Below the pieces are notes generated by a model. It searched no databases. It was not told where the DNA came from and saw only the letters and a program-made list of their open reading frames with translations. This document shows positions 30,079 to 30,937 of a stretch of 64,000 nucleotides of DNA, piece after piece. The stretch covers positions 30,823,925 to 30,887,924 of the forward strand of contig NC_089725.1 in the NCBI RefSeq assembly GCF_035083965.1. Reading direction: 5' to 3'. The number at the start of each line of letters is the position of its first letter. Position 1 is the first letter of the stretch. This stretch comes from Branchiostoma lanceolatum (lineage: Eukaryota > Chordata > Leptocardii > Amphioxiformes > Branchiostomatidae). A program made the position numbers and the translations under genes.

Positions 30079-30937
30079 ATGAGTACGTACAATATGGCAC
30101 TCGTGAGTCTGCTCCTCCTCGTGTTGGCGGTACACCGTTCTACCCCCCTGTCCATCGCCTGTCTGTGGAGCCCCGGGTCCCTGACCAACCCGTGCCCCGA
30201 GCCCCCCGCCGACTGCGAGCTGGTCATCAGCATATGTGGGTGTCAGGTGTGCGCCAGTCTGGAGGGGGAGTCATGTGACAACGGTGCCCCGGGGTGGGTG
30301 TTGGAACTTTTACTTTAACCTTTTTCGTTGTTGTTGGTTGAGTGGTTGGTTGGTTGGTTGGTTGGTTGGTTGGTTGGTTGGTTGGTTGGTTGGTTGGTTG
30401 GTTGGTTGGTTGGTTGGTTGATTAGTTGGTTGATTAGTTGGTTGTTTGGTGGGTTGTTCGCTTTTTTTTATTTGCTTCTTTGGATTTTTTGTTTGTTTGT
30501 TTTTTGTTGTTGTGTGACCGGTCTGACGTGTGCTCCCTCCGTACGTACAGGTGTGCTAGCGGCCTGACGTGTGTTCCCTCCGTACGTACAGGTGTGGAAG
30601 CGGCCTGACGTGTGTTCCCTCCGTACGTACAGGTGTGCTAGCAGCCTGACGTTTGTTCCCTCCGTACGTACAGGTGTGCTAACGACCTGACGTGTGTTCC
30701 CTCCGTATGTACAGGTGTGGAAGCGGCCTGACGTGCGTGTACCCCACCTGTGAGGAGACGGTGCAGGAGTACGTCCAGCCTGACGGGACCGTCCTCCAGG
30801 CCATCTCCCCCTGCCTGTGGAACTGGCGCCCGGGAACATGCCAGTCCTCTCCGCTTAACGGTAACATGAACCTCTATACACAGGCCAACGAAATACGTTT
30901 AGTCCCAATCAGCACACCTTCGCACACTAACGTTTAG
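30079..30937 (+). CDS. Small secreted IGFBP-N-like cysteine-rich protein, two exons
   Basis: Exon 1 (30079-30293) encodes a signal peptide (Met-1 or Met-6 through about residue 22, [10 protein letters not shown]) and a cysteine-rich domain with [25 protein letters not shown]. Exon 2 (30715 to 30937) joins in phase 2 to give [11 protein letters not shown], which completes the insulin-like growth factor binding protein N-terminal pattern (CGC.C, later GLTCV). The tail has three more cysteines (YPTCEE, ISPCLW, PGTCQ) and the frame stops at 30,937. A donor at 30,862 (AACG then GTAACA) could instead lead to a further exon. The protein is about 145 residues, like single-IB-domain secreted proteins; the ligand is unknown. 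Between the exons lie a TTGG repeat and a tandem array of copies of the exon 2 acceptor. Confidence 0.7.
30337..30455 (+). repeat. TTGG tetranucleotide microsatellite
   Basis: About 20 nearly perfect TTGG units followed by TTGATTAG variants, inside the single intron of the IGFBP-like gene. Confidence 0.95.
30515..30714 (+). repeat. 41-bp minisatellite, each unit carrying a splice acceptor and exon 2 start
   Basis: Five units, the first partial, each ending CTCCGTACGTACAG (GTATGTACAG in the last). Each full unit begins GTGTG(C/G), then GGCCTGACGTGTGTTCC with small changes. The unit matches the first 23 bases of the true exon 2 at 30,715, so it encodes [12 protein letters not shown] peptides and repeats the acceptor. 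GTACGT in every unit could also act as a donor. Confidence 0.9.

Follow-up and report, generated by a model that had tools for sequence, protein, structure and literature searches.

When a splice acceptor is found in several near-identical copies, one after the other, which copy defines the exon, and does the copying serve to regulate the gene or is it merely tolerated? In lancelets, earlier cases of repeated boundaries in Adh3 were named "mirages" (PMC3087553). The question is raised anew by a Branchiostoma lanceolatum locus, analyzed here within a 64,000-nucleotide stretch of DNA (the window), where a minisatellite with a period of 41 bp spans the end of intron 1 and the start of exon 2 of a gene that encodes an IGFBP-like protein. 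The evidence discussed below argues that this array probably is a mirage, i.e., a minisatellite of the lancelet type that copies a splice boundary, where the exon-side acceptor is productive and the four upstream acceptors are decoys.

The Array and Its Host Gene

The coordinates of the gene, the array units and related features are listed in Table 1. The three exons yield a predicted protein of 126 aa, which has a hydrophobic leader and contains 12 cysteines. The full-length protein matches the PF00219 (IGFBP) profile at 27.6 bits (E 4.6e-06), which is slightly below the curated cutoff of 28, while exon 1 alone scores 21.4 bits and the product obtained with the acceptor at 30551 scores 28.5 bits. 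Proteins with an IGFBP domain are expected to display a GCGCC-type cysteine signature. The predicted protein has CGCQVCA instead and covers the profile only from position 9 (to 55 of 55), and the gene is for these reasons referred to as IGFBP-like rather than IGFBP. A search of the PDB gave IGFBP-5, -4 and -3 as weak matches (E 0.058, 0.41 and 0.84, respectively) together with unrelated chains at comparable E. No paralogous IGFBP-like gene was seen within the window using tblastn (E up to 50), where all matches outside the gene's own exons and repeat units had an E of at least 2.4.

Table 1. Features of the IGFBP-like and SEL1L genes in the window
Feature	Position	Strand	Remarks
Exon 1, IGFBP-like gene: start codon, leader, first part of domain	30079-30293	+	ends in phase 2, donor GGG/GTGGGT; best codon score in this frame
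GTTG microsatellite, intron 1	30333-30456	+	31 copies (TRF)
First unit of array, most diverged	30510-30550	+	no AG at its own start; first acceptor at its end
Decoy unit 1	30551-30591	+	copy of exon 2 start, CTGAC, pyrimidine-rich stretch, acceptor
Decoy unit 2	30592-30632	+	GGA codon, like real exon
Decoy unit 3	30633-30673	+	from array alignment
Decoy unit 4	30674-30714	+	exon 2 acceptor at its end; GTATGTACAG in place of GTACGTACAG of the others
Exon 2	30715-30860	+	the only one of five acceptor choices that keeps frame into exon 3
Exon 3, coding part	31038-31057	+	TAG at end; AATAAA at 31133
Array over last SEL1L codons and stop codon	57627-58370	-	64-bp unit, 11.7 copies (TRF); boundary between CDS and 3' flank, not a splice site
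Second mirage: SEL1L exon donor copied	60357-60938	-	last exonic bases 60866 (authentic), 60733, 60598, 60451, 60357
Third mirage: donor of another SEL1L exon and one further copy	61867-62246	-	TRF period 195; last exonic base 62198

The part of exon 2 that extends beyond the copied segment (30740-30859) scores +0.39 log-odds per codon in the frame opened by 30715, with a third-position GC of 0.85; this log-odds value was attained by 0.18% of 2170 random 120-nt stretches. Negative codon scores were obtained in each of the three forward frames for intron 2 and for the pre-array part of intron 1. On the reverse strand, two frames of the exon 2 tail come close to the forward score (0.31 and 0.34), and this strand contains an open frame of 128 aa (30471-30854). 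The decoy exon copies reach 0.16-0.35 in their own exon frame, because they are copies of the exon.

The array was identified using TRF at 30519-30735 on the + strand, with period 41, 5.3 copies, 90% matches, no indels and a score of 357, to be compared to a top score of 54 at periods of at least 10 when 30000-31200 was shuffled 100 times with its dinucleotides preserved. The 26-base core of the array occurs five times in the window at up to three mismatches and was absent from 100 shuffles. The motif TACAG/GTGTG is found five times on the + strand of the window, at a spacing of 41 nt, such that the first exonic bases are at 30551, 30592, 30633, 30674 and 30715. An earlier note on this DNA had described 41-bp units bearing TACAG followed by GTGTG ahead of exon 2, and these data bear out that description. 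As in the lancelet mirages, the minisatellite spans a splice boundary, in this case the acceptor of predicted exon 2, and the splice signal recurs from unit to unit, all five of the repeated acceptors being intact.

The four units within 30551-30714 are identical to each other at 36-39 of 41 bases, while the most diverged unit at 30510-30550 shares 33-35 of 41 bases with the rest. Over the five intronic units, 10 of the 41 columns vary, none of them within CTGAC or TACAG. The number of coding bases per unit, previously given as about 23, is near-correct: in the best unit (30592) 21 bases are identical to exon 2. The GTACGT that had been proposed as a possible donor in each unit is found in four units and is GTATGT in the remaining one. 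These internal sites are, however, weak, with scores of 0.6-0.8, at the 64th-66th percentile among all GT of the window (crude matrix, 16 donors). The exon 1 donor is among the top 0.2% of the GT in the window when included in the crude matrix, and scores 7.3 when left out of its own matrix.

The array probably arose when a 41-bp segment over the boundary of intron 1 and exon 2, comprising about 20 bp of the intron end and about 21 bp of the exon start, was multiplied by tandem duplication and unequal exchange; such an array could be polymorphic in length. The Leu-Thr codons CTG ACG of each exon copy give a CTGAC that is located 24-28 nt ahead of the next exon start, at the same place in all five intronic units and the exon. 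Next to this motif come TGTTCCCTCC, or TGCTCCCTCC in the case of the first unit, and then GTACGTACAG (differing before 30715, see Table 1). Because the copied codons supply CTGAC ahead of pyrimidines and TACAG, each unit resembles a complete 3' splice site, in which the branch-point-like CTGAC may function as branch point.

Reading Frames of the Alternative Transcripts

All paths from exon 1 to the five acceptors were enumerated, allowing for the internal donors CC/GTACGT or CC/GTATGT and introns of at least 40 nt. This procedure gave 16 splice paths, i.e., five direct and 11 internally spliced, only one of which, the direct path to 30715, runs through to the exon 3 stop. The remaining 15 paths result in products of 84-94 aa instead of 126 aa. 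As had been pointed out previously, 41 is not a multiple of three and use of an upstream acceptor shifts the frame; when used directly, all four upstream acceptors lead to a stop at codon 91, which is located 129-252 nt ahead of the last exon junction. These products would contain 9, 9, 8 and 10 cysteines, as compared to 12 in the full protein. According to the usual rule for nonsense-mediated decay (NMD), a stop well ahead of the last exon junction leads to decay of the mRNA. The mRNAs that use decoy acceptors would, because of the position of their stops, be predicted targets of NMD, or else a source of 90-aa truncations.

Rescue of the frame by internal mini-exons was considered and rejected: with introns no shorter than 40 nt, all 11 internally spliced paths miss the regular stop. 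A mini-exon between an acceptor and an internal donor is 31 nt long and therefore does not repair the frame, i.e., internal splicing within the array also breaks the frame. Domain homology fails to single out 30715, because the match to PF00219 extends only to residue 79 of 126 and acceptor 30551 yields a product that scores slightly higher than the full-length protein.

Tandem Copies at Other Boundaries

The window harbors boundary arrays also in SEL1L, which is found on the minus strand at 58-64 kb, where nine hand-joined exon pieces match the solved SEL1L structure (PDB 8kes_D, E 1.3e-189). In the second mirage (Table 1), the donor copy at 60733 has GC instead of GT, and the final copy carries little exon sequence. 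Here, the authentic donor leaves a 169-nt open exon (61034-60866), which by coordinate arithmetic joins the following exon (60053) without a change of frame, while the four other donor choices run through in-frame stops. In the third mirage, which is embedded in GT-rich repeats, the further copy aligns with the donor region at 62198 over 78 columns at 88% across the junction, and the open frame of the exon ends at 62193, before the second donor copy. Thus, the exon-side donor copy of the SEL1L mirages is the only one predicted to avoid an in-frame stop, which parallels the array in the IGFBP-like gene. In the 64-bp array at the end of the SEL1L coding region, nine copies fit the C-terminal-codon pattern and 10 fit a looser pattern.

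A census of the splice junctions in three genes revealed a second, junction-spanning copy within 1.5 kb at 3 of 33 junctions, where four of the 33 positions (SEL1L e4 donor, e6 acceptor and e9 acceptor, and the CES e6 acceptor) are approximate and all rows were kept, including the CES e6 acceptor, which is without AG. The CES acceptors of e3 and e7 score -18.1 and -10.8, respectively, and are possibly misplaced. Of random positions, 63 of 400 within the three genes and 59 of 500 over the whole window had a tandem copy. In a control in which periods of up to 12 were masked and the lag had to be 20 or more, copies were seen at 105 of 792 positions in introns and at 30 of 549 inside exons; of these 30, 20 belong to the exonic portions of the three junction arrays. 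A repeat process that targets junctions was therefore rejected, as these numbers reveal no excess at junctions over introns. It follows that, on this small sample, boundaries are not special targets, and that introns in which tandem repeats abound occasionally extend these repeats across the edge of an exon. Mirages would, as the local control suggests, require just a generally high rate of intronic tandem duplication and no special targeting.

Other repeats and open frames were observed in the window. Microsatellites of CAAT (49416-49477), ATTC (49999-50102) and GTTT (52563-52614) begin 1-20 nt past three donors of a carboxylesterase gene. An 81-bp (27-codon) tandem repeat of 4.1 copies (38780-39107) is located within an 811-aa open reading frame (ORF) with leucine-rich repeats. 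The segments 5058-9877 and 14190-18860 form an inverted duplication, with large blocks that are 94-97% identical and an ORF with an NXPE4_C domain in each arm; within the inverted copy, a 296-aa ORF (16587-17474) contains a 144-bp (48-codon) tandem repeat of 1.9 copies (17107-17386, minus strand). Furthermore, a stop-free open frame of 930 aa on the minus strand (31975-34764) displays a tyrosine-kinase-type domain (PF07714) and weak Ig matches. Genes of the SEL1L, NXPE and receptor-kinase-like types are in keeping with animal DNA.

Selection of the Exon 2 Acceptor

The reading frame and codon usage agree with the predicted use of the authentic boundary at 30715, while the acceptor scores do not favor this site. 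The splice matrices are crude, being based on 16 local acceptors (15 when scoring the array) and 16 donors, with the CES e6 acceptor and the acceptor side of CES e1 excluded. With 15 local acceptors the scores were 6.2 (30551), 3.0 (30592), 5.9 (30633), 5.9 (30674) and 3.6 (30715), i.e., in this crude matrix 30715 ranks fourth of five and three of the four decoys score higher. The acceptor at 30551 is preceded by the most T-rich tract and by the widest AG-free zone, 111 nt as compared to 27-39 nt for the other acceptors. Given this rank of 30715 and the wide AG-free zone of 30551, a preference for 30715 is without explanation in the local sequence. That exon length or exonic enhancers select 30715 would be a guess.

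These observations bear on the regulatory role that the earlier note had assigned to the array, namely that several acceptors are used and that the repeat number sets the share of productive and decoy mRNA, such that the array would be a tunable brake on the IGFBP-like gene. The presence of five near-identical acceptors, with three decoys scoring above the authentic site and the first of them preceded by the long, T-rich zone free of AG, speaks for such a brake, as do the early stops in the decoy transcripts, and the 30551 product would even retain a domain that scores above the IGFBP cutoff. On the other hand, the printed mirages were reported without disturbance of regular splicing in the accessible parts of PMC3087553 and PMC3902484, where the data in the former suggest no interference although cryptic use was deemed possible. 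In addition, tandem copies are not more common at junctions than in introns of the same genes and therefore nothing suggests selection for a placement at junctions. A brake of this kind is thus unlikely. The anatomy in the earlier note, i.e., multiplication of the acceptor and first codons and the shift in frame, was correct, but the regulated, variable transcripts tuned by repeat number found no support.

Even less probable is a scenario in which decoy use is repaired by recursive splicing. Because a GT directly follows each acceptor, splicing to a decoy rebuilds a donor (GGG/GTGTG), which could be re-spliced to acceptors further downstream, ending at 30715 and leaving the frame unchanged. 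All five acceptors of the array have AG/GT, and the rebuilt donors score 6.0-7.0 as compared to 0.6-0.8 for the internal GTACGT/GTATGT sites and 7.3 for the real exon 1 donor, although all these values rest on a crude matrix. In flies, recursive splicing is decided by competition between donors of this rebuilt type (PMC8605326, accessible part). However, AG/GT is common locally (6 of 16 acceptors, including that of exon 2) and therefore no special sign of recursive splicing, and the introns to be removed would be just 41-164 nt. Moreover, 30715 rebuilds the same donor, which scores 7.0 as compared to 4.0 for the exon 2 donor, so that exon 2 would be skipped to give a 104-aa product with a changed tail. 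If the scenario were true, the AG/GT ladder would be a built-in tolerance of acceptor duplication and would explain intact mRNA at acceptor-type mirages. RNA folding as the selector is highly improbable. Here, the self-complementary GTACGTAC, present in four units, would pair between units and hide the decoys, while 30715, where one base differs in the fifth unit (GTATGTAC), would stay free. The AG of 30715 was indeed more often unpaired (0.10 as compared to 0.00-0.02 for the others), but in only one of the three stretches that were folded. Averaged from -10 to +5, the probability of being unpaired was similar for the five acceptors in every stretch (0.17-0.24), the decoy at 30551 displayed the highest mean exposure and the most exposed CTGAC (0.23-0.67), and the stability was not beyond that of shuffles (z -0.67; 50 of 200 shuffles were as good). 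RNA structure was for these reasons discarded as selector of 30715.

The preferred reading is thus that of a mirage in which 30715 would be the productive acceptor and, presumably, the predominantly used one, and where choice of any of the four decoys would terminate translation at codon 91 and direct the mRNA to decay. The array is probably tolerated rather than regulatory.

Comparison with Known Boundary Repeats

The array is probably a further, acceptor-type case of the class of mirages known from lancelets. A mirage in an IGFBP-like gene or in SEL1L was not found among the matches listed, or in the accessible parts, of the open-licence literature on mirages and amphioxus IGFBP. Previously described cases, as given in the accessible parts of PMC3087553 and PMC3902484, include the Adh3 mirages of Branchiostoma floridae and B. 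lanceolatum (Canestro et al. 2002, cited in both), the globin genes BflGb6 and BflGb9 with tandem repeats over exon-intron boundaries (PMC3087553), two more lancelet genes, retinol dehydrogenase and presenilin by reference title (cited in PMC3087553), and boundary repeats in TnC and PGBD5 (PMC3902484).

The likeness to the globin genes is found in the tandem copies of the intron-exon boundary, with AG and GT signals in many units, and in the unit at the edge of the cluster, which is the least homogenized (PMC3087553), as is that at 30510-30550 here. As in the IGFBP-like array, the intron end and exon start are copied in BflGb6. In contrast, the globin units are 150-160 and 157 bp rather than 41 bp, and BflGb6 was studied by RT-PCR and in a second haplotype, with six and three units, respectively, in the two haplotypes (PMC3087553), whereas the IGFBP-like array is known from the sequence of one haplotype. 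The Adh3 mirages also duplicate splice sites (PMC3087553, PMC3902484) and have units of 10-72 bp, a range that includes 41 bp; they differ in that somatic instability was reported there (PMC3087553). The TnC and PGBD5 repeats likewise extend across splice sites, but in other genes and, in PGBD5, with imperfect units of 60 and 108 bp (PMC3902484).

Mirages were proposed to be a source of new introns (PMC3087553), and in the intron gain by AGGT-bearing tandem duplication described in PMC4974935 (accessible part) the duplication creates new pairs of splice sites, as it does here. The IGFBP-like array, however, shows no sign of a new intron; its internal donor is weak and all 11 internal paths are out of frame or stopped. 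Relative to these systems, the array adds an acceptor-type case with a short unit, whose copied codons double as the source of a branch-point-like motif, and the window as a whole presents three splice-boundary arrays in two genes within 64 kb. The locus could be used to test how the spliceosome picks the exon-side copy from near-identical sites.
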